Source of the DNA: a virus
Virus record (IMG/VR): IMGVR_UViG_3300048113_000249
Location: 1-26,597 of that record
Reading direction: 5' to 3' (one strand)
DNA length: 26,597 bases
The position numbers were made by a program, and so were the translations under genes. A model generated the notes under the pieces. That model did not search any database. It was given only the letters and a program-made list of their open reading frames with translations, and was not told where the DNA came from. This document shows positions 3,823-23,568 of the stretch, in pieces; the stretch's first letter is position 1, and each line of letters begins with the position of its first letter.

Positions 3823-4301
3823 TATTTAAGCGTCTTTTCAGTTAAGACTATAAATCGCCAACCTCTGTTTTCACACCAGGCATTTGCATAAGCATATTTA
3901 TCTCTATTTTTAATATACTGTTCTGCTAAAAATTTATAGGAGTTAAGTGCCTTTTTAGATTTCTTTAAAGGCGGTTTAGGTTTTTTAATCTGTGCTTCTG
4001 GCTTTATTTCAACTAGCCATTCTACTGGTGGCTCATCGCCAGTACCAGCTGTTTTCATATAAAAGTCCGGATAATAAATGTGTTCTTTTTTATCCGCAGT
4101 CCACCTGTATTTAATTTTAACAGGTTCACTTGACCATTTTAATACATTATCTTTAGTATCGCACATAATACAGAACTTTCTTTCCCAAGAGGAACGATAA
4201 ATGATCGGCGTTGGGCCGATATACTTATCTGGATTTTCAGGAGTAAAATACCCCTGTACAAATCCTGAATTGCCACTAGGTTTTAAGTTCTTTATTGACA
4301 T
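3822..4301 (-). CDS. 4: Head completion nuclease-fold protein gp4
   Basis: At 159 residues this matches T4 gp4 (about 150) along its length. Shared elements are IIYRSSWERKFC (residues 33-44), the SEP segment near 58-60, YYPDFYMK (76-83), WLVEIKPEA (95-103) and the C-terminal NRGWRFIVLTEKTL. The family has a TnsA-like nuclease fold. Glu40, Asp79, Glu98 and Lys100 are the likely active-site positions. In T4 the protein is needed to finish filled heads so that tails can join. It begins directly next to the gp55 stop codon and ends overlapping the next gene, forming a tight gp55-gp4-198aa unit. Confidence 0.88.
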   Translation of the reverse strand: MSIKNLKPSGNSGFVQGYFTPENPDKYIGPTPIIYRSSWERKFCIMCDTKDNVLKWSSEPVKIKYRWTADKKEHIYYPDFYMKTAGTGDEPPVEWLVEIKPEAQIKKPKPPLKKSKKALNSYKFLAEQYIKNRDKYAYANAWCENRGWRFIVLTEKTLK

Positions 4302-4678
4302 TAAATATTAAACATTCCGGATTCGCCATCACCACCTCTAGTGTTAATACGATCCATTGACATTGTGTTTTTATATTTCGTTGGATGAATTTTATTCCAG
4401 CCCTTTGCATAACCTCTCTTTGCAATCTCTGTAAAGTATGCAAATGCATTGGTATATTTAGGGTTAAAATTTCTCCAGTACTTAAGAAGGTCTAATATAG
4501 CAAACTGCATACAATCATTCTTGTCGTCTTCGTTTAAATATACTAGTTTTCTAATTGCTCTTTCAGCGATTAGTATCAACATCTTCTCAGCGTCTTTCGT
4601 TAACTTATCATCTTCTAAAGATAATACAATCTGATTGTACAAATCTTTGTTATTTAAATAATTCTTTTTTCTAGGCAC
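4301..4678 (-). CDS. 55: Late-transcription sigma factor gp55-like
   Basis: This 125-residue protein resembles the front two thirds of T4 gp55 (185 residues). It has NYLNNKDLYNQI at residues 6-17, a LILIAERAIRKL helix, and NAFAYFTEIAKRGYAKGWNKI near 77-97, matching the T4 NNKEL, IMLIAEG and NPHAYITQA segments. gp55 directs host RNA polymerase to late promoters. The start is GTG at 4678: an in-frame stop lies five codons upstream and the first ATG would remove the conserved N terminus. The C terminus GESGMFNI may replace the T4 sliding-clamp-binding tail. A strong terminator sits just upstream, so the gene needs its own promoter in 4679-4711. Confidence 0.82.
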   Translation of the reverse strand: MPRKKNYLNNKDLYNQIVLSLEDDKLTKDAEKMLILIAERAIRKLVYLNEDDKNDCMQFAILDLLKYWRNFNPKYTNAFAYFTEIAKRGYAKGWNKIHPTKYKNTMSMDRINTRGGDGESGMFNI

Positions 4679-12520: not shown

Positions 12521-13102
12521 TTATTGTTCTATGGTTAATATACCGTTTTGTTTAGAATAAGGCTCCTTTTCCCATAGATTAATTGCTAAAGCTTGACGAG
12601 TACCTTTAGTAACTGTTTTAACAGTGTGTACATGTTGTCCAGCTTGAAATATAATAAATCTATTAGGTTTAGCCTTAATTACCTCTGGTGGCATGTCAGC
12701 ACCGTCTGAGTAAACATGTAATTCTCCTCCTTCAAAGCTTTGTCCTGCTGGATAATATACACTTCCGATAACAGGTGTTACAATCTCACCGGTCTTTTTG
12801 TGCCAAGCTTCGTCTTTATCAAAATGAGGTTCTAAAAAATCATTCCATCCTGAGTTAAGTTCTTTAGCTGTTTGAATTCCAGTCCAATATTCAAATCCAT
12901 CAATAGAAAATGTAGTTGAAATTGGGCAATGATCTCCCCATGCATATTCAATGATCTTTTTAGCCGTATTCGTAGCTGGTGAATTCCACCAACCACTATA
13001 CCATTTAAATACACCAGGTTCTTTAAATAAAGAAGGTTTATTTAATTCTATCTCTGCTAAAAGATCTTTGTCTTGTATAAAATTATCAAATACTGCTATC
13101 AT
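12521..13102 (-). CDS. 2-oxoglutarate/Fe(II)-dependent oxygenase
   Basis: This 193-residue protein has the prolyl-4-hydroxylase-like double-stranded beta-helix signature. The iron ligands are HFD (His93, Asp95) and a distal His159 in HVHTVKTV, and Arg169 in TRQALAINLW would bind 2-oxoglutarate. SVYYPAGQSFEGGELHVY and PNRFIIFQ form the core strands. Similar genes are widespread in T4-like marine phages, usually with unknown targets. Protein (prolyl) hydroxylation is the default expectation. Oxidation of a DNA base or modified-base side chain is possible given the modification cassette nearby, but nothing in the sequence decides this. It lies in the uvsX-gp41 replication block, with its ATG overlapping the preceding stop by 4 nt. 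Confidence 0.85.
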   Translation of the reverse strand: MIAVFDNFIQDKDLLAEIELNKPSLFKEPGVFKWYSGWWNSPATNTAKKIIEYAWGDHCPISTTFSIDGFEYWTGIQTAKELNSGWNDFLEPHFDKDEAWHKKTGEIVTPVIGSVYYPAGQSFEGGELHVYSDGADMPPEVIKAKPNRFIIFQAGQHVHTVKTVTKGTRQALAINLWEKEPYSKQNGILTIEQ

Positions 13103-14981: not shown

Positions 14982-16190
14982 TTAAAATAATGCCGAAGCA
15001 TAAATTAGGTTTGTGTCTAATGTTTGTAATCCTATTGCAGTTAATACTCTATTAAGAGGATCGATCATACATTTTTCAAATTGAGTATCGTAATCTACTT
15101 GTGGTGCAATTTCATAAGGATGTTCGTTTGGCATATATGCATAAACTTCTGATATTGGTGTTTTACAATTGTAAATCTTTAGCTTTTCACCATTACCAAT
15201 TACCTTATATTTGTTTTTATATTTTGAATTTTGGTTCAATAAGTAGTTATAGTAACCTGCAGCTTTTACATTTGCTGGACATTTAAGTCCTACTTGAAAT
15301 TCAATTTGATCGTCAACAATATACTTGTCAATATTATTAGTTCTACGATTAAATGAAATATCATCTATGTTTGCAAGTTGAAATTCTTTCTTGCTAGTTT
15401 TCATAAACTGTACAAGTTCTTGAAGTTCTTCTGCACCTGGTGTTTGCTGAGATTTAAATAAAATCTTTAGTGCTTCTACTAGCTTTTGTCTAGCAAACTT
15501 TGGTGTTGATGATTGAATAGTATCAAAGCCGATTGTTTTTACCTTCTTTAAATGAGGGTGTCTATCAGTAACTTCTAGTTTATCATCCCATGCAATGTTT
15601 TGAATATACTTTTTCTTAGACATCCAAATACCATTATATGCTAATGATTCTAATTCAAAGAATAAGAAATTATCTGTGTTTCTAAGTTCTGCATATTTAT
15701 GCATGGTTGCGGTAATATAATCCTTAAGTCTAAATGCGTAAAATGCTAATATGAATTCATCAAGTGGTAAAGCCTTCTCTTCGTCTTTCCAAACAATAGT
15801 TTCATAAAGATCTTGGAACTGTACGTAACATGAATCTGTATCAATATAGATTACCGCTGGTTTTTCAACTTTACCTTTAACAGTTAAGCCGAATTGTTCA
15901 TGTACTTTAGTGTCCTTGTGCCAAAACTCATTTACATACTTATTAAGTATGGTTTCAGAATATAGAATTGCGTTCTTACCTTGTTTCGTAATAGATTCTG
16001 CAATATCAATATTGAAGAAGTGAAACCACTTGTTACCGAATGCACCGTAGATAGAGTTAAGAGTTAATTTTACTGCTTGTTCATAAGCGGTATATTTAGC
16101 AGATAGCTGCTTGTAATGACTTACAAGCAGCTCTGCATCTTCTCTACTAAGTTGATCGATTGGTTTCTCAGTAAGTGACTCTATATTCAT
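14982..16190 (-). CDS. 43: DNA polymerase gp43, C-terminal fragment (motifs B and C, thumb)
   Basis: This 402-residue piece of a family B polymerase begins with about 35 residues predicted to be the second fingers helix, then motif B KLTLNSIYGAFGN (Lys41, Asn45, Tyr48), motif C IYIDTDSCY (Asp117, Asp119), the KKKYIQN motif after that, and a thumb. No exonuclease and no motif A are present; these are in the separate ORF at 20768-22174. Together the pieces total 870 residues, close to T4 gp43 (898). It starts 3 nt after the gp45 gene and ends SALF, which could serve as a clamp-binding tail. I see no intein sequence at its N terminus. Confidence 0.92.
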   Translation of the reverse strand: MNIESLTEKPIDQLSREDAELLVSHYKQLSAKYTAYEQAVKLTLNSIYGAFGNKWFHFFNIDIAESITKQGKNAILYSETILNKYVNEFWHKDTKVHEQFGLTVKGKVEKPAVIYIDTDSCYVQFQDLYETIVWKDEEKALPLDEFILAFYAFRLKDYITATMHKYAELRNTDNFLFFELESLAYNGIWMSKKKYIQNIAWDDKLEVTDRHPHLKKVKTIGFDTIQSSTPKFARQKLVEALKILFKSQQTPGAEELQELVQFMKTSKKEFQLANIDDISFNRRTNNIDKYIVDDQIEFQVGLKCPANVKAAGYYNYLLNQNSKYKNKYKVIGNGEKLKIYNCKTPISEVYAYMPNEHPYEIAPQVDYDTQFEKCMIDPLNRVLTAIGLQTLDTNLIYASALF

Positions 16191-16193
16191 ATA

Positions 16194-16937
16194 TTAAGCT
16201 GTTTGACAAGTTGAAACAGTTAATAGTGTTTGGGATTCTACTGATTGAAATACAATCTTAGAGTCTGAGATATGTACTTTTTGTTCTTCTCTATCTAAAA
16301 GATTTAAATACTTCTTATAGACAGTTACTTCTCCATTACCATTTGATTCTGGATTAATTGTAGCGTTAAATGATTTTCCACTTACAGCTACTCCTGTGCC
16401 ATTTGCTTTTACGCTAAATGTTTCTTCTTTATCAAGTCCAAATAAGTTCTTTACTTTACCGATGGTATGTGTGTCCATGTTAAAGCTAAACTTAGTATTG
16501 TCAATAGCAAAGATAGCTGCTTGTTGGTCTGGTGATAAATCTTTAAAACCTAATGAAGGCTCTGAACAAGATAATGTAATTTCTAATTCATCATTAAACA
16601 TTCTCAATGAAGATGCGATTAATTCGCCTTCTTGTTCAATGAATTCTAATTCTCCTTTAATAGCGTCTGCATCAAAGTGTTTGATAGCTTCGATAACCTT
16701 TGCTCCTTCAAAGAAGGCAACCTTCATTTCTAGGTCAGTATCAGGCCATTCGCTGATTTGAAAAATCTTATCACATTCAACGGCATGTGATTTTACAGCA
16801 TCTCTTTGTGGGAGATATACTGCGGAAGTTATTTGTCCATCTTTGATTTTCATGTAGACAAATGAGTCAATTAGTTTAACTCGGTTAATAAAACCTGTTA
16901 AAGCGTGTTGGTCAATTCGATCAATTTGTAGTTTCAT
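16194..16937 (-). CDS. 45: Sliding clamp gp45-like
   Basis: This 247-residue protein (T4 gp45 is 228) is predicted to be beta-rich with two similar halves, as expected for a trimeric PCNA-like clamp. There are no catalytic motifs to anchor the call. It rests on size, acidic composition, segments such as SFVYMKIKDGQITSAVYL and FNMDTHTIGKVKNLFGLD in clamp-like positions, and the location directly upstream of the polymerase fragment that must bind it. In T4 it also supports late transcription through gp55 and gp33. A terminator at 16995-17024 isolates it from the gene upstream. Confidence 0.7.
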   Translation of the reverse strand: MKLQIDRIDQHALTGFINRVKLIDSFVYMKIKDGQITSAVYLPQRDAVKSHAVECDKIFQISEWPDTDLEMKVAFFEGAKVIEAIKHFDADAIKGELEFIEQEGELIASSLRMFNDELEITLSCSEPSLGFKDLSPDQQAAIFAIDNTKFSFNMDTHTIGKVKNLFGLDKEETFSVKANGTGVAVSGKSFNATINPESNGNGEVTVYKKYLNLLDREEQKVHISDSKIVFQSVESQTLLTVSTCQTA

Positions 16938-16991
16938 CTAAATATATTTTTGTTTGATAGTTATACTAGTAAAGTGCTAGTTTGTTTCATT

Positions 16992-17024
16992 AAAAAAGCC
17001 CAGGATCCTAGAAACCTGGGCTTT
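16992..17024 (-). terminator. Intrinsic terminator after the outer-membrane protein gene
   Basis: A 10-bp stem, AAAGCCCAGG (16995-17004) with CCTGGGCTTT (17015-17024), and a 10-nt loop. On the minus strand it is followed by six T. It ends the outer-membrane protein transcript before gp45. Confidence 0.88.
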
Positions 17025-17043
17025 AAACCAAATTAGATTTAGC

Positions 17044-17460
17044 TTAGAATTTTAAGCCGAACCCAATTTGAAGGTTAGTTGTTTCAGCTCCTAAATCGTA
17101 AACGATTTTTGGATCTACAAACATTGCTCCTTTGTGGAACTCAAACATTTTACCTACACCTAATTGAGCTTGATCGAAATCAAAGTCGTTTAGTGCAACG
17201 TAGCCAAAGAATCCTTTATGGAAGTATCTTCCTTCTAGACCTAAGACCATGTCTTCTGTTGAGTCTGCTTGTGTCAAATTCATTCCAACCATATAGTTGT
17301 CAGAAAAAGCATAGCCAATTGTTGGCTGGATTGATAACTCAGTCCATGCCGTGTTAGTAATATCGCCAGTACCTACGTACCAGTCACCTTTTGCGTTTTG
17401 CGCGTTTGCACCTAAAGTTGTTAAGACAACTAGTGCCATTGATAAAATAAAATTTTTCAT
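17044..17460 (-). CDS. Small outer-membrane beta-barrel-like protein with signal peptide
   Basis: This 138-residue protein begins with a clear Sec signal peptide (MKNFILSMALVVLTTLGANA, cleavage expected near NAQ at residues 19-21). The mature 117 residues alternate polar and hydrophobic residues in short strands with Gly and aromatic residues (KGDWYVGTGDI, TIGYAFSDNYMVGMNL, VLGLEGRYFHKGFFGYVAL) and end in Phe (LQIGFGLKF), the usual signature of outer-membrane barrels. It looks like a six- to eight-strand porin/OmpA-like domain of Bacteroidota. It has its own terminators on both sides. Possible roles are receptor masking, superinfection exclusion or membrane change during infection; none is shown. 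It is most likely host-derived. Confidence 0.8.
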   Translation of the reverse strand: MKNFILSMALVVLTTLGANAQNAKGDWYVGTGDITNTAWTELSIQPTIGYAFSDNYMVGMNLTQADSTEDMVLGLEGRYFHKGFFGYVALNDFDFDQAQLGVGKMFEFHKGAMFVDPKIVYDLGAETTNLQIGFGLKF

Positions 17461-17492
17461 AATAAATTAATTTGGTTTGTAAAATCTTCTAC

Positions 17493-17594
17493 TCAGTCTG
17501 CAGTTTGCAGTATTCTAGGATTAGATGTAGAAGTAACTGCTACTTGTGTTTGAGCAGTATGGGTTAATATTTTTGTTAACGAATGATTGTTCAT
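17493..17594 (-). CDS. Possible 33-residue leader peptide upstream of the outer-membrane gene
   Basis: ATG at 17594 has an A-rich leader (TTAACAAAGAA) like real starts in this phage. It encodes MNNHSLTKILTHTAQTQVAV and 13 further residues before TGA. The product is Thr/Ser/Gln-rich with no domain. Two short inverted repeats lie inside it (ACTGCT 17536-17541 with AGCAGT 17553-17558; CTGCA 17498-17502 with TGCAG 17506-17510), so the stretch could instead be a structured 5' leader. Confidence 0.3.
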   Translation of the reverse strand: MNNHSLTKILTHTAQTQVAVTSTSNPRILQTAD

Positions 17595-17640
17595 TTCTTT
17601 GTTAATGTAACAGTTTATACAGAGTATCTGTGCTTTGTTC

Positions 17641-17648
17641 CAAAAATA
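17641..17648 (-). promoter_or_regulatory. Possible Bacteroidota-type -7 element upstream of the outer-membrane gene
   Basis: The minus strand reads TATTTTTG, which fits the Bacteroidota -7 consensus TAnnTTTG. No convincing TTTG element lies at the right distance upstream, so this is weak. It is offered because the terminator at 17663-17701 requires a promoter somewhere in 17461-17660. Confidence 0.25.
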
Positions 17649-17662
17649 ATTAACAAACTTGT

Positions 17663-17701
17663 AAAAAAAGTAAGGCCAGGAAGTAGCGAACCCCTGGCCT
17701 T
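17663..17701 (-). terminator. Intrinsic terminator after nrdA
   Basis: A 9-bp stem, AAGGCCAGG (17672-17680) with CCTGGCCTT (17693-17701), and a 12-nt loop. On the minus strand it is followed by AC and seven T. It ends the nrdB-nrdA transcript. Confidence 0.85.
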
Positions 17702-17704
17702 GAT

Positions 17705-17743
17705 CCGAGAACTATCTCGGTCCTAAGAAGTGGACTTAACCAC
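17705..17743 (-). other. Two extra hairpins between the nrdA stop and its terminator
   Basis: CCGAGA (17705-17710) pairs with TCTCGG (17715-17720) around 4 nt. GTGG (17730-17733) pairs with CCAC (17740-17743) around 6 nt. With the terminator they form three hairpins in a row within about 75 nt after the nrdA stop, possibly a stabilising 3' end or a small RNA. The rest of the gap (17461-17660) holds only the possible peptide and weak promoter listed separately. Confidence 0.45.
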
Positions 17744-17753
17744 AACTAAATTA

Positions 17754-19580
17754 TTATCCGTCGCAGCTTAAGCAATCTGGATCCATTGCTGCTTGTGCAA
17801 TATCTCCTCTTAATACGGATTCTGTTCTCATATAATAGAGAGTTTTAACTCCTTCTTTAAAGGCTTCTAAATGTACTTTATTAATAAACTTAGAATCTGC
17901 TTCATTAGGGAATGCTAAATTTAAACTTACAGCCTGATCAACATATTGTTGTCTAATACCTGCTTGTTTTACCAATTCTAATTGATTAATTTCTTTAAAT
18001 GTTTTAAAGATATTCTTAATAGGCACGTATTGGTCTTGTTCTAATTCAGGTAAAGCGTCTAATTTATTTTTAGTAATTATATTTTCTTTATTTGTAATAC
18101 TAGTAGCTACTTTAACATAGTAATCTTCAATAAATTCTAGTCCTTGTACAGAGCCGCCATCTGTTAAGATTTGATCCCATGTTTTTCTAGTATTCTTATT
18201 AATAAGTCCTAAGAAACCTTCTAATACTGGATTCTTTCTAATAAATGTACCCTTTGCAGTTTGTTCTGTGAACACGTTAGCCGCCCATGGCTCAATACCT
18301 GCAGATACATTACCCGCTAGTTTTGAGTTGCTTACAGTCGGTGCTATAGCTCTCAGGTGAGTGTTTCTCATTCCTGTACCTTTACACCATAATGGTTCGC
18401 CCATTTCTAATGCCATATCTCTTGAAGCCTTTTCACTTTCAGTTTCTAATTGCTTAAAGATCTTTCTAGTTTCAAATTGTGCTGATAAGCCTTCAAATGG
18501 AATACCTCTTTCTTGTAAATAAGTATGCCATCCAAGAACTCCAAGTCCTAGTGCTCTACCTTTTTCTGCAGATCTTACAGAATTCTCAAAGCCTCTCATG
18601 AATTTTGCCTTTTGAACAAATTCATCTAGGACTCCGTCAAGGAACCAAGTTGCTGTGTAAATAAGATCTGTATTTTTCCATTCATCATATCTTGCTAAGT
18701 TAACAGAAGATAAACAACATACAAAAGAATGAGATTCATCTGTGTGTAAAGTAATTTCAGAACAGATATTAGTCATATAAACTTTTAATCCGTTTTGTTT
18801 GTATGCATCAGGGTTAGCTCTATTAATATTGCCCTTAAACATCACGTATGGTTCACCAGTCGCTTTTCTTTTTCTTAAGACTGCAATCCATCTCTTTCTA
18901 GCCTCTTTGTCGCCAGCTTCAATCTTTTGCATAAATCCATCTGGTACTACAACACATTGATGAAGATTAAGAGATTGTCTATTAACATCTCCTTTAGGCT
19001 CTCTAATTTCTAGCCATTCCCAGAAGTCACCATGTTCAATGTCAATATTAACACTTGCTGCTCCTCTACGCACAGAACCCTGATTGGTTGCCAATATAGT
19101 ACTGTCGTATATTTTAGTGAATGGTACAACACCATCGCTCGTTCCATTTCCTGTAATGTTACTTCCAGCGGGTCTGATTTGATTTATACCGATGCCTACT
19201 CCACCGCCATGTTTTGCGAGTAGCATCATTTCTAGGTTTTTAGCACCGATGTCGTGAATAGAATCTGCTACATCAATACCAAAACATGAAATAGGAAGAC
19301 CTCTTTCTAGCCCTGTGTTTGATAGAACTGGGCTAGCTAAGTTTAACCATCCCTTCCATATATAATCAAAGAACTTTGTTGCTAGTTCTGGTTTATTAAG
19401 ACGTCTTGCTACTGTAGTTGATACTCTCCAATATGCGTCTTTTGGTTTTTCATCTCCAAACAGATACCCTGCTGAGATTGTTTTTACGTAGACTTCGGTG
19501 TTTGCCCAAAGTGGAAAATCCACTCCGAGTTCCCATCCTAAATGTTCTCCGTGGTTTTTTTGTTTAGTTTCTTGTGCCAT
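17754..19580 (-). CDS. nrdA: Class Ia ribonucleotide reductase, large subunit NrdA
   Basis: This 608-residue alpha subunit reduces ribonucleoside diphosphates to supply dNTPs. All key residues are present: redox Cys99 in SCFG, the catalytic triad in NICSE (Asn271, Cys273, Glu275), the second redox Cys at 288/289, the radical-transfer pair Tyr582-Tyr583 (LYYMRTES), and the C-terminal CLSC (Cys603, Cys606) that thioredoxin or glutaredoxin recharges. The N terminus lacks the usual allosteric ATP-cone of about 90 residues, so dATP inhibition of overall activity is probably absent, a common trait of phage enzymes. It follows nrdB by 9 nt and is closed by a terminator. It sits between the two halves of the polymerase gene. 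Confidence 0.96.
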   Translation of the reverse strand: MAQETKQKNHGEHLGWELGVDFPLWANTEVYVKTISAGYLFGDEKPKDAYWRVSTTVARRLNKPELATKFFDYIWKGWLNLASPVLSNTGLERGLPISCFGIDVADSIHDIGAKNLEMMLLAKHGGGVGIGINQIRPAGSNITGNGTSDGVVPFTKIYDSTILATNQGSVRRGAASVNIDIEHGDFWEWLEIREPKGDVNRQSLNLHQCVVVPDGFMQKIEAGDKEARKRWIAVLRKRKATGEPYVMFKGNINRANPDAYKQNGLKVYMTNICSEITLHTDESHSFVCCLSSVNLARYDEWKNTDLIYTATWFLDGVLDEFVQKAKFMRGFENSVRSAEKGRALGLGVLGWHTYLQERGIPFEGLSAQFETRKIFKQLETESEKASRDMALEMGEPLWCKGTGMRNTHLRAIAPTVSNSKLAGNVSAGIEPWAANVFTEQTAKGTFIRKNPVLEGFLGLINKNTRKTWDQILTDGGSVQGLEFIEDYYVKVATSITNKENIITKNKLDALPELEQDQYVPIKNIFKTFKEINQLELVKQAGIRQQYVDQAVSLNLAFPNEADSKFINKVHLEAFKEGVKTLYYMRTESVLRGDIAQAAMDPDCLSCDG

Positions 19581-19589
19581 ATAATTGTA

Positions 19590-20591
19590 TTAATCAAATA
19601 AGTTATCGTCGTCCCAGTTTTCACCTTCTCCAGCTTTAGCGTAGTCAGTTGGTCTAACTGCAAAAAAGTCTGTGTGAGTGTGACCTCCGGTTAAATGGTA
19701 GAACCATTCTAGTTGATCGGCTGCTTCCTCATCATATTCAAATGCTGATTCGTAACCTAATTCAACTAATTTTTCATTAGCTCTCTTAGTAATGAAATGT
19801 TTTAGATCGCTAGCCTTTAAATTGTCTAGGTCTCCGTTTTCAAAGATCTTATCAATAAAGTTATGTTCTAAATAAATGATAAGTTCTGCTGCTTTTAATA
19901 CGTCTGCTTGAACCGATTGTTTCAAGTCTGGGTATTCTTCACACATGTGTCTGAATAATTTACATCCCATTCTAGAATGTAAAGATTCATCTCTTACTGA
20001 CCACTTCATTTGTTGGCCAATACCTTTTAATAAGTTTCTCATTTGGAATGAGTATAAAACTGCAAAAGAACTATAAAGTGAACAACCCTCTGCAAACGCC
20101 GAAAAAATTGCAAGAGACCTAGCAACCTCATTTCTGGCTTGCTTACTTACCTTTAAATCTTTATGAGTATACGGTGCAGTAGTCGATGTTAATAGCTCAA
20201 ATTTCTCTGCAGTTGCAGGTTCATGTAAAAAAGCTTCAAAATCCTCAAGACCTAAAGTCTCGTTTAAATAAGAATAAGCAGTTGCATGAATAGTCTCTTG
20301 TGAGCCGAACATCATTGCCATTTGTTTTATCTCATGCTTTGGAAACCATTGAGTTACAAATTGAGTCCAGTAATCAGATACTGCACATTCAGTTTGTGCA
20401 AAACCTAAAAGAATATTTCCGACTAAATGTTTTTCATGGGGTAATAGATTTTCATTCCAATCTTTTACGTCTCCTTGCATGGAGATCTCAGTGTGCAGCC
20501 AGAATGCTTGCGCTTGTTTTAACCAACCCTCTGTATAATATTCAGGGTATTCAAATGGTTTAAACGGAATTCTTTCAGTAAATAATGACAT
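19590..20591 (-). CDS. nrdB: Class I ribonucleotide reductase, small subunit NrdB
   Basis: This 333-residue beta subunit carries the diiron centre and tyrosyl radical. Probable ligands are Glu68 (FAQTECAVSD), Glu99 and His102 (QETIHATAY), Glu168 (FAEGCSLY), and Glu202 and His205 (RDESLHSRMG). Tyr106 is at the radical position, so this is not the Phe-containing Mn/Fe subclass. The first ligand appears to be Glu where E. coli has Asp84, by my alignment. The C terminus DDDNLFD would dock on NrdA. The gene is preceded by a terminator and a regulatory-looking gap, and an A-rich leader (AAAACAAAATATACCAA) precedes the ATG. Confidence 0.95.
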   Translation of the reverse strand: MSLFTERIPFKPFEYPEYYTEGWLKQAQAFWLHTEISMQGDVKDWNENLLPHEKHLVGNILLGFAQTECAVSDYWTQFVTQWFPKHEIKQMAMMFGSQETIHATAYSYLNETLGLEDFEAFLHEPATAEKFELLTSTTAPYTHKDLKVSKQARNEVARSLAIFSAFAEGCSLYSSFAVLYSFQMRNLLKGIGQQMKWSVRDESLHSRMGCKLFRHMCEEYPDLKQSVQADVLKAAELIIYLEHNFIDKIFENGDLDNLKASDLKHFITKRANEKLVELGYESAFEYDEEAADQLEWFYHLTGGHTHTDFFAVRPTDYAKAGEGENWDDDNLFD

Positions 20592-20662
20592 TTGGTATAT
20601 TTTGTTTTTTAGTTGTGTTTAATTTTAATTATTACTTCATTTTAAGTAAAGGTCCTTTAGAC

Positions 20663-20684
20663 TAAAAAAGGTCTGTCTAGACCT
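20663..20684 (-). terminator. Short intrinsic terminator upstream of nrdB
   Basis: On the minus strand AGGTCT (20684-20679), loop AGAC, then AGACCT (20674-20669) and a run of six T. The stem is only 6 bp, so it may be a partial terminator or attenuator between the polymerase N-terminal fragment and nrdB. A 13-bp palindrome, TAAAGGTCCTTTA (20647-20659), lies just beyond it and could be an operator. Confidence 0.6.
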
Positions 20685-20713
20685 GATTCAATCTCTTAAT
20701 ACCTAATAAACGA

Positions 20714-20754
20714 CGGTAGTAATACTTGATGAATTATATATCGTATTACTGCCG
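20714..20754 (-). other. Long hairpin carrying a late-promoter motif in its loop
   Basis: CGGTAGTAATAC (20714-20725) and GTATTACTGCCG (20743-20754) form a 12-bp stem with one imperfect pair and a 17-nt loop. It lies 13 nt beyond the stop of the polymerase N-terminal fragment. It lacks a T tract, so it is not a simple terminator on the minus strand. Confidence 0.6.
20734..20742 (-). promoter_or_regulatory. GATATATAA motif upstream of nrdB, inside a hairpin loop
   Basis: This exact copy of the late-promoter candidate is 142 nt upstream of the nrdB ATG. It is the only exact copy not directly before a structural gene. The short terminator at 20663-20684 lies between it and nrdB. Confidence 0.4.
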
Positions 20755-20767
20755 GGGTTTATTGAAT

Positions 20768-22174
20768 TTAGAGCTTAAATTTTTTTGTCAATTCGTCGGC
20801 TTTTGTGTAATATTCATAAGATGTTTTCTTATACTCTTTTCTTTGGCCATATAAATCACCTAGAATCTTTTTAAGAATACTATCTTCTTTTTTATACACA
20901 ACTCCATTTTCGCATACAATAACAGATTCATCTTTACGACGTTCTTTTATTTCTGCTTCTCCTACCATCTCAATAAATGCATCCGGTGAAATGTTAAACT
21001 GTCTCATTATAGATGGATATAGTGATGCAAAATCAAATGCACTTACACCACCATAATAACCCACAATAGGCTGTTTAACAAAAGCACCTTCATACTTAGC
21101 TTCTTTTTTACTGTCTGCTTTGTCGTATTCTACACCAATACGTTGTCCTTGCTCTGTTAACTTACGAGCAATTAAAGATTCAGTAACAGCCACCGGGGAG
21201 GCAGCTTTATATAATGGCATTCTTGTAATCGTAGCTAAGGTTAAAAGAACTTCCATAGATCTAAGTTTCTGATCTATGTAATAAACTAAACAAGAGTCAA
21301 TTACGTTATAGAAGACATATTTCTTAAAGTCATTCTCGTAAAGATCTTGTAAAGATCCACTATATTGTATTTTACTAATACCGCCAAGCACTGCACCAGA
21401 TACAAATGCTAACGCGTTAGATTCTTTTACAGCAACCGAACGATCGTACTTATCATATAATTGCATGTAATCTAAGATACCCATGTGTAGAGGTCTAGAG
21501 TCTTTTCTATCTAAAGCGCCAGTGATTGCAACCTTTTCTAAATCTATTTGTAAGATTTTACAACGGTTTACAATATACTGCCAGTCATAGTTAATAAAGT
21601 TCCATCCTGTCATCATAGGGAATTTAGGTAAAAACTTATGTAGGAAAGTATAAACCATATCATACTCCGACTTAAATTTGTAATAACTAAATTCCCAATC
21701 AGAATCATAATTCTTGAGATGCTCATTAGTGTCATCTTCAATAGCTTTGATTTGTTTAGAGTCTAGATCTTCAAGGCCTAATACAATAGCCTTTTTATCT
21801 GGGGTAATAATTGAGAATGTTAATATTCGAGATTTAGCTTCTTCAGGTTTTGGAAAACCATCTACAATTTCAGTCTCAATATCAACAAAATATGTTTTAG
21901 GCATATTAAACTCAAAGATTTCTTCTTGATCTTTTTCTGGTAGACCATCCATAAAGTAAAGAAGTGAAAACTTATTAAAGGATCTAGAAATAGATTTCTT
22001 AAGTGGTCGCCCGTCCCAATTTGTAGTGGAACGATCTTTCCATTTATCATTATCTTTTGCTACAACCCAATTCTGAAATTTATCAATTCCATATCGTTTA
22101 AATGATACTGTACCCTCTTTGTTATAGTAAGATACAATTACTTCTTTCTCTTTTTGCTCAATATCTAATAACAT
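20768..22174 (-). CDS. 43: DNA polymerase gp43, N-terminal fragment (exonuclease, motif A)
   Basis: This 468-residue piece has an intact 3'-5' exonuclease: Exo I VDIETE (Asp98, Glu100), Exo II NFINYD (Asp197) and Exo III YNVID (Tyr289, Asp293). Palm motif A follows as DFASLYPSI (Asp381). The first fingers helix GQRKEYKKTSYEYY ends the protein at KKFKL and a stop. Motifs B and C are absent and are found in the ORF at 14982-16190. The break therefore falls at the tip of the fingers, and no intein sequence follows residue 468. The ATG overlaps the dUTPase stop by one base (TAATG), so this fragment belongs to the upstream modification/nucleotide operon. Confidence 0.93.
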   Translation of the reverse strand: MLLDIEQKEKEVIVSYYNKEGTVSFKRYGIDKFQNWVVAKDNDKWKDRSTTNWDGRPLKKSISRSFNKFSLLYFMDGLPEKDQEEIFEFNMPKTYFVDIETEIVDGFPKPEEAKSRILTFSIITPDKKAIVLGLEDLDSKQIKAIEDDTNEHLKNYDSDWEFSYYKFKSEYDMVYTFLHKFLPKFPMMTGWNFINYDWQYIVNRCKILQIDLEKVAITGALDRKDSRPLHMGILDYMQLYDKYDRSVAVKESNALAFVSGAVLGGISKIQYSGSLQDLYENDFKKYVFYNVIDSCLVYYIDQKLRSMEVLLTLATITRMPLYKAASPVAVTESLIARKLTEQGQRIGVEYDKADSKKEAKYEGAFVKQPIVGYYGGVSAFDFASLYPSIMRQFNISPDAFIEMVGEAEIKERRKDESVIVCENGVVYKKEDSILKKILGDLYGQRKEYKKTSYEYYTKADELTKKFKL

Positions 22175-22641
22175 TAATAGCCTCTTTTTTGACGTTGAAC
22201 ATTCTCTTCTGCTTTCGCAAAATAGTAATTGTAAGCGGTCTTTGCGTCAAGGCCTATGGACGCGGCATAATTAATAAAGAAGTGTAGAATATCTACCCAT
22301 TCCATATATAGTTCTTTTTTATCATCTTCAGATAAATCAGAAACTTTCTTATTATCAAATGTTGAGAAGTCTTTCTTCCAGTATTTCCATACTGCATTTC
22401 CACTTCCGTCTTTGATTCCACCAAGAGCATCTGTCATTTCGTGAATTTCATCAATTACAGCATGAGTATTACAGTGCCAGAAATTCATTACATCTCGTAA
22501 TGACATTTCTTCGAAGTTAAAACCATAGGTTTTTTCTTGCATGTTTTTTTGATGAGACATGATGTCTGCTAAGTGTGTTGTTGATTCTGCATAGAAGTCT
22601 TTTACTTCTAAGTCTTTGCATTCGTTATCTATATTTGCCAT
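22174..22641 (-). CDS. Dimeric all-alpha dUTPase (MazG-like NTP pyrophosphatase)
   Basis: This 155-residue helical protein has the paired acidic motifs of the dimeric dUTPase/MazG superfamily: DEIHE (Glu65, Glu68) on one helix and EWVDILHF (Glu114, Asp117) on the next, which bind the Mg2+ ions. It would convert dUTP to dUMP, keeping uracil out of DNA and supplying dUMP for thymidylate or hydroxymethyl-dUMP synthesis. Its position beside ribonucleotide reductase and the putative modification genes fits either use. Specificity for dUTP over other NTPs is inferred from family resemblance. Confidence 0.8.
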   Translation of the reverse strand: MANIDNECKDLEVKDFYAESTTHLADIMSHQKNMQEKTYGFNFEEMSLRDVMNFWHCNTHAVIDEIHEMTDALGGIKDGSGNAVWKYWKKDFSTFDNKKVSDLSEDDKKELYMEWVDILHFFINYAASIGLDAKTAYNYYFAKAEENVQRQKRGY

Positions 22642-22671: not shown

Positions 22672-23568
22672 TTACTTATCTGTTTCAAGTATTTCACCCC
22701 AAGCTCTTTCAGACTTTGTTAACAATTTTGTGTTAATATCTTCTGGTTTAGGGTCTCCACCTACATTCCAAAACCATGCGCCAGGAGTACCATGCTTTTT
22801 CATGAACTCCCAGGCCTTCGCATCGTAGTTCATTGCCGATGGAAATGGTGGATTATATTGTGGATCTACATTTTGTGTAAATGCTTTTGGGTGAGACCAT
22901 ACTTCTGCAATACCTCTTTCGCCCTTCTTAATATTTCTTGCTACTGCAACTCCATTAAACTTAGCATCAGGCCAGGCTATTTGCAGAGACCTCTGTAGAA
23001 CGCCAGTGGATATTGCTGACCATACTTCATCAGGGTACCCATGTGTTTCTGCAATAGTATGCGCGACCTTCACAGCAGCCGCTGTAACTAGCTCATGTTT
23101 AAGTCCTAAGGGAATAAAGAATGCATTGTTTGCTTCTGCCCATTTCTTTGCGTGAGCATTTAAGACTGGCATTGCTGCAATTCTTTTAAATTTCATTTCA
23201 GCTCCCATTTCTACACAGATCGCTTGATGATCTGAAATCTCTTTTTGTGATGGACTGAATAGAACAAGTTTCTTATTATACTTTTTTGCTAGGTATGCTA
23301 ATGAGATACCTGCAAATCCATATCTAGGTTGAACATAAACTAGAGTATCTTGTCTACAAGTGCTAACTAGAATATCTCCAAATCTACATTTAGATCCAAA
23401 GCCCATCATGTCTTCTCTTACCACTTTAAATCCTTCATGGTCTACTAATTGTGGAGCCTCGAAAGGATCTACCCAGTCACCTGCTAAATCTAACCATGCC
23501 TGTTTATTTGGCATCATCAGATTTAAGTCTTGATTGTAAAGTGATGTTGTGTGGTTATTATGTGCCAT
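22672..23568 (-). CDS. Fold-type-II PLP-dependent enzyme (tryptophan-synthase-beta superfamily)
   Basis: The 298 residues follow the fold-type-II plan: GFGSKCRFGD, with Lys60 as the likely Schiff-base lysine (the GSFKxR position of cysteine synthase); VQPRYGFAGISLAYLAKKY in place of the SSGNHG loop; LVLFSPSQKEISDHQAICVEMGAEM for the second domain; and SAISTGVLQRSLQI for phosphate binding. The SSGNHG loop differs from metabolic enzymes, so the substrate is probably not O-acetylserine or threonine. It overlaps the ADDT-like gene by 11 nt. As I recall, similar adjacent pairs occur in marine T4-like phages. The likely role is making or remodelling an amino-acid-derived group on modified thymidine; this is inferred. 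Confidence 0.75.
   Translation of the reverse strand: MAHNNHTTSLYNQDLNLMMPNKQAWLDLAGDWVDPFEAPQLVDHEGFKVVREDMMGFGSKCRFGDILVSTCRQDTLVYVQPRYGFAGISLAYLAKKYNKKLVLFSPSQKEISDHQAICVEMGAEMKFKRIAAMPVLNAHAKKWAEANNAFFIPLGLKHELVTAAAVKVAHTIAETHGYPDEVWSAISTGVLQRSLQIAWPDAKFNGVAVARNIKKGERGIAEVWSHPKAFTQNVDPQYNPPFPSAMNYDAKAWEFMKKHGTPGAWFWNVGGDPKPEDINTKLLTKSERAWGEILETDK

Follow-up and report, generated by a model that had tools for sequence, protein, structure and literature searches.

A T4-type DNA polymerase encoded by two separate genes, broken at the fingers tip, in a deep clade of phages

The 26.6-kb linear IMG/VR viral record analysed here, referred to throughout as the window, encodes the parts of a T4-type family B DNA polymerase (gp43) in two separate open reading frames (ORFs) on the minus strand. 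The N-half (20768..22174, minus strand, 468 amino acids (aa)) comprises the gp43 N-terminal domain, the 3'-5' exonuclease, palm motif A and the first fingers helix, and the C-half (14982..16190, minus strand, 402 aa) comprises the second fingers helix with motif B, palm motif C and the thumb, ending in a clamp-binding-like peptide (...LIYASALF). The two ORFs lie 4.6 kb apart and together encode 870 aa. Along the minus strand the gene order is a MazG/dUTPase-like gene, the N-half, nrdB, nrdA, a 138-aa ORF, a gp45-like gene, the C-half, two small ORFs and uvsX (RecA family), with a DnaB-like helicase gene farther along. Pfam assigned DNA_pol_B_exo1 and the first part of DNA_pol_B (positions 29-137) to the N-half, and DNA_pol_B from position 153 onward to the C-half; a PDB search matched the N-half to residues 106-486 and the C-half to residues 546-819 of RB69 gp43. 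PHROG 262 covers both halves, and PHROGs also has one family for each part (phrog_2062 and phrog_1918), an early indication that the split occurs elsewhere too. Motifs Exo I-III and A, B and C are all present in the gp43-like domain order, distributed over two ORFs instead of the single polypeptide of a T4-type gp43, and relatives hold no intact copy. The two ORFs are thus consecutive parts of one gp43, and the coordinates, the lengths, the presence of nrdB and nrdA between the halves and the allocation of the motifs (exonuclease motifs and motif A to the N-half, motifs B and C to the C-half) all agree with an initial annotation of this DNA.

IMG/VR searches found 294 relatives of the N-half and 228 of the C-half. 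The 124 window-like IMG/VR loci that carry both halves partly overlap, because for some the N and C searches returned the same contig, so that the distinct contigs are fewer. In all of them the gene is split, its two parts lie in one orientation at a distance of 3.65-5.8 kb, and nrdB, nrdA and the gp45-like gene sit between them. Statistics were based on 54 non-redundant protein pairs. The catalytic residues of both the exonuclease and the polymerase are invariant in 54/54 pairs, and the median ratios of nonsynonymous to synonymous substitution (dN/dS) of 0.041 for the N-half and 0.045 for the C-half indicate strong purifying selection. The same split was found in the cultured phages PAU (gp105/gp110), MA9V-2 and PTm1, with the halves 2-3.5 kb apart, so that the split site, which the initial annotation had proposed to look for in related genomes, is shared by the window-like loci and by deeper relatives. 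Lak phages and uncultured megaphages are broken in the fingers-tip loop too, and larger genomes have the halves much farther apart: about 87 kb on opposite strands in two IMG/VR contigs (G012 and G017), ~130 kb on opposite strands in LR756502, ~230 kb on opposite strands in Lak-C1, at 256 kb (N-half, plus strand) and 539 kb (C-half, minus strand) in LR756504, and ~620 kb along the linear record of LR756501. Since the halves are unlinked in these megaphages, cis read-through is excluded.

Family B polymerases bind a pair of catalytic metals with aspartates drawn from both motif A and motif C. Asp381 of motif A is on the N-half and Asp117 and Asp119 of motif C are on the C-half; because these aspartates share metals and a palm requires strands of the two halves, neither chain would be able to polymerise by itself. 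Modelling of each chain singly with AlphaFold gave confidence (pLDDT) values of 79 for the N-half and 74 for the C-half (predicted template modelling score 0.47 for the latter), and both matched RB69 gp43 best. Low-confidence segments include residues 353-392 of the N-half (palm around motif A) and 41-71 and 193-223 of the C-half (motif B and palm), mainly palm parts which the partner would complete.

Comparison of the distance matrices of the two halves gave a correlation of 0.85, or 0.76 as a partial correlation given uvsX (permutation p 0.001). Distances of the gp45-like gene correlated similarly with those of the N-half (0.87) and the C-half (0.83), whereas those of the overlapping gene upstream of the N-half correlated only at 0.45 with the N-half, and those of nrdB only at 0.38 with the N-half and 0.19 with the C-half. 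The low values for nrdB are explained by two types of nrdBA at the locus, with NrdB proteins 60-80% different, which replaced each other two or more times along the polymerase tree. The small-subunit gene nrdB (19590..20591, minus strand) and the large-subunit gene nrdA (17754..19580, minus strand) of ribonucleotide reductase are therefore exchangeable cargo, and replacement of the intervening DNA while the halves stayed matched is as expected if the halves work together.

Taken together, we consider it very probable that the window encodes a genuine two-gene replicative polymerase, in which separately made chains form an obligate, non-covalent two-chain RB69-like enzyme, and that it arose when an ancestral gp43 broke at the fingers tip. 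The proposal of the initial annotation that two chains make one enzyme is supported by the catalytic aspartates on different chains, the purifying selection, the matched evolution and the precedent of Aeromonas phages 44RR and 25, while physical assembly, activity, regulation and a single origin of the split are inferred. Three points weigh on the other side. The single-chain models are of moderate quality, and their uncertainty could partly stem from shallow alignments; the matched histories could partly reflect vertical inheritance; and both the window and the sequences nearest to it are contigs, mostly unclosed, so that one more polymerase gene could conceivably lie beyond their ends.

The genes around the halves suggest how each would be expressed. 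Directly upstream of the N-half, with a one-base overlap, lies a MazG/dUTPase-like nucleotide pyrophosphohydrolase gene (22174..22641, minus strand), and a few bases upstream of the C-half lies a gene for a probable gp45-like sliding clamp of 247 aa (16194..16937, minus strand). Homologues of the latter occur directly upstream of or near the C-half in PAU, MA9V-2, PTm1 and LR756500, and in relatives its stop codon lies a few bases ahead of the C-half start or slightly overlaps it. Its profile match to T4 gp45 was moderate (57%, P 1e-4), and no direct family or PDB match to gp45 was found when sought; the designation 'gp45' of the initial annotation, backed by synteny in four distant phages and the profile match but by no family match, is thus better worded as a probable clamp. 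Between nrdA and the clamp gene, the 138-aa ORF (17044..17460, minus strand) has a signal-like N-terminus; an ORF does lie where an 'outer-membrane' gene had been noted, but it has no family match and is confined to close relatives (37/124 IMG/VR loci), being missing in most.

Intrinsic-terminator-like hairpins were predicted after nrdA (17672..17701, minus strand) and ahead of the clamp/C-half unit (16996..17023, minus strand), the latter followed by a promoter-like site, TGAAAC-N18-TATAAC (16960..16989, minus strand), and a weaker hairpin follows the N-half (20669..20684, minus strand). A terminator-like hairpin between nrdA and the gp45-like gene was present in 45/54 genomes, compared with 3% after shuffling. 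In the 180 bp ahead of the gp45-like gene, a hairpin was seen in 47 of 50 relatives (1 expected), TGAAA-N16-19-TATA in 41 of 50 (0.9 expected) and both, in the order hairpin, then promoter-like site, in 40 of 50; the hairpin after the N-half was seen in 14-19 of about 50 relatives. Shuffled controls preserved base content only, and the promoter pattern was picked after viewing the sequences, both kinds of site being predictions. Neither Bacteroidota-type promoters (TAnnTTTG) nor T4 late promoters were enriched upstream of the units. The conserved predicted terminators and the promoter-like site between the halves support separate expression units, in line with the separate operons that the initial annotation had suggested. 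Elsewhere in the window we noted a 2OG-Fe(II) oxygenase gene between the helicase and uvsX genes (12521-13102), a gene for a gp55-like short late sigma factor of 125 aa with a GTG start (4301-4678), and, upstream of the N-half operon, a weak match to PALP, a pyridoxal-phosphate-dependent enzyme (22672-23568).

We propose that an ancestral gp43 broke in the fingers-tip loop, probably once, in the ancestor of the clade; that the pieces were each slightly extended and given a start or stop of their own; and that the gene pieces then drifted apart. The N-half would be made with the upstream nucleotide-metabolism genes and the C-half, together with the probable clamp, from a separate unit, and the chains would associate non-covalently into one RB69-like enzyme. 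By itself the N-half could still serve as an exonuclease. It is possible, though we hold it only tentatively, that the halves also act apart, the N-half as a free 3'-5' exonuclease in DNA degradation or recombination and the clamp/C-half unit as a control on polymerase assembly. The complete exonuclease module in the N-half, the solved structure of a 388-aa fragment of T4 gp43 (1noy) and the conserved, predicted separate transcription units speak for such roles; intact relatives, however, manage without them, and they would add to the heterodimer rather than replace it. Slightly more doubtful is the broader proposal of a single deep split in a T4-related/jumbo clade that was kept for part-wise regulation, with an N-half exonuclease, a clamp/C-half unit gating assembly and a slot that accepts nrdBA.

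A different account would have the parts joined by trans-splicing, through a split intein that joins the chains or a split intron that joins the mRNAs. PolB split inteins are known from Aeromonas and Pseudomonas phages (PMC11923092, PMC6892783), and PTm1, Lak and probably LR756500 have one within the C-half at motif C. The break in the window is elsewhere: the N-half ends 23 aa past the conserved fingers Arg (T4 ~502, by counting) and the C-half starts 40 aa ahead of the motif-B Lys (T4 ~517, by counting), distances that confirm the position in the fingers-tip loop given by the initial annotation. In other split lineages the N chain stops 27-36 residues past the fingers Arg. Summed over the two chains, the fingers residues number 61-88 in most lineages, compared with 36-42 in intact marine T4-like phages and 77 in T4; as these sums exceed those of the intact marine phages and are close to that of T4, no part of the fingers has been lost. 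Pfam found no intein domain in either half, in agreement with the initial annotation, which saw no intein, and the 23 aa and 40 aa at the fingers-tip break leave no room for intein parts. No Rfam match reached the gathering thresholds in the window, and the gp45-like stop codon directly ahead of the C-half start leaves an intron no space. With the inteins of relatives being secondary and at a different site, we regard trans-splicing as very improbable.

Equally little credence is due to the idea that the halves are a decaying relic in a genome replicated by another polymerase. Passages of a jumbo-phage survey (PMC7824862) report an additional, split Pol III-like protein in some group 2.2 phages, and those passages make no mention of a PolB fingers-tip split. 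In 13 records (10 of 11 related contigs together with PAU, MA9V-2 and PTm1), however, no PolA or Pol III family match was found, and a relic is hard to reconcile with dN/dS of about 0.04 in both halves, with the invariance of every catalytic residue and with retention of the split throughout a deep clade. The initial annotation had named a complete gp43 elsewhere in the genome as the observation that would count against its reading. In each of the 11 contigs, of 54-212 kb, DNA_pol_B occurs as a single N-type region plus a single C-type region, without an intact gp43, and the complete genomes of PAU, MA9V-2 and PTm1 likewise lack a complete copy. That the true gene is contiguous and was misassembled or misread, as might be feared of a metagenomic contig, is refuted for practical purposes by independent genomes, namely a 54-kb contig (L003) with both halves 100% identical to those of the window, 123 more IMG/VR loci of the same arrangement, and cultured PAU, MA9V-2 and PTm1, which are split alike.

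Trees of each half placed the split phages together with Flavobacterium phage MaF61 in one clade (ultrafast bootstrap 100 for the C-half and 60 for the N-half), separate from T4, 44RR and intact marine phages in both trees. MaF61 has an intact gp43 of 994 aa (L165, 11944-14928) and lay on a long branch inside the split clade in unconstrained trees, a position that would mean re-fusion or several splits. Under approximately unbiased tests, one split that leaves MaF61 outside the clade was not rejected (p 0.52 for the N-half, 0.44 for the C-half and 0.21 joined), and re-fusion in MaF61 is possible. Known hosts of the split clade are mainly Bacteroidota; bacterial genomes searched with the N-half gave no match and hence no host clue. 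In an otherwise intact marine T4-like clade, one gp43 (L277, 3252-6391) is interrupted by about 0.9 kb from the fingers tip to just past motif B, with the motif-B piece in neither ORF, apparently independently.

The closest biochemical precedent, by analogy, comes from Aeromonas phages 44RR2.8t and 25 (gp43A and gp43B), whose T4-type PolB is split in the same fingers-tip loop, the 44RR N chain ending 30 aa past the fingers Arg. According to a review (PMC2988022), citing Petrov 2010, gp43A and gp43B co-purify with polymerase activity. As in these phages, all catalytic residues are kept across the two ORFs of the window; their cistrons, however, are adjacent, with only a brief untranslated stretch or a gene for a homing endonuclease between them, and the halves are not dispersed. 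Because 44RR branches with T4, apart from the split clade, its split is independent. Sphingomonas phage PAU, Chryseobacterium phages MA9V-1/2, Tenacibaculum phage PTm1 (gp236 and gp239/gp241) and the Prevotella Lak phages belong to the clade of the window and share the position of its break, with identities of about 34% or lower and with the halves annotated as separate polymerase genes; in PAU, MA9V-2 and PTm1, the gp45-like gene is just upstream of the C-half or within one gene. Unlike that of the window, the C-halves of PTm1 and Lak are split again by an intein at motif C. This second break (DTDS) was seen in PTm1 (L164, 15522-18328), Lak-C1 (L211), Lak-B5 (L212) and LR756500 (L166, 31706-35121), probably also by a split intein in the last, and yields a three-gene polymerase; in PTm1 a VSR-type endonuclease gene lies between the C-half parts. 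The C-half of the 735-kb phage LR756501 (L210, 2835-4535) has a long N-terminal extension, for a total of 566 aa.

In Rhodothermus phage RM378, which is T4-related, a 522-aa PolB ORF begins just ahead of motif A, without the exonuclease. Exonuclease and polymerase are thus on separate proteins there, a known feature of this phage; the break falls between exonuclease and palm, leaving the polymerase active site on one chain, unlike in the window. The Pseudomonas jumbo phage MIJ3 encodes its split PolB in ORFs that lie next to each other, accompanied by an HNH gene and a putative split intein (PMC6892783). Archaea also encode family B polymerases in two genes, namely the split PolB3 of Methanobacteriales and the split PolB of Nanoarchaeum equitans, whose parts are non-adjacent and retain intein parts; these splits are attributed to inteins, for Methanobacteriales by inference (PMC4104785). 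The initial annotation, which regarded split family B polymerases as a rare trait of phages and archaea, was right that few split phages are known, but missed the commonness of the split in a deep clade, the 44RR split in the same loop and the wandering of the halves. We found no description of a clade-wide split in the open-access literature, which was the scope of the search.

Split gp43 has been known from a few phages; here it is old and common to hundreds of viruses, with the halves separated by anything from a few kilobases to hundreds of kilobases. What is new is a split fixed in a deep clade, an intein-free break, dispersed halves and apparently separate expression. The split polymerase is real, strong indirect evidence argues that it is functional, and its mechanism is suggested by analogy. 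Halves listed, as they usually are, as unrelated polymerases call for care in annotation. That 44RR was split independently at the fingers tip indicates that a break is tolerated there, which would be useful for engineered split polymerases, and the clade offers a natural system for studying the regulation of two-part replicases. Replicative family B polymerases are nearly always single-chain, and an old, naturally stable split through fingers and palm, with genes hundreds of kilobases apart, implies that the fold can assemble in trans, in a two-part enzyme that is the sole replicase candidate in entire phage lineages.

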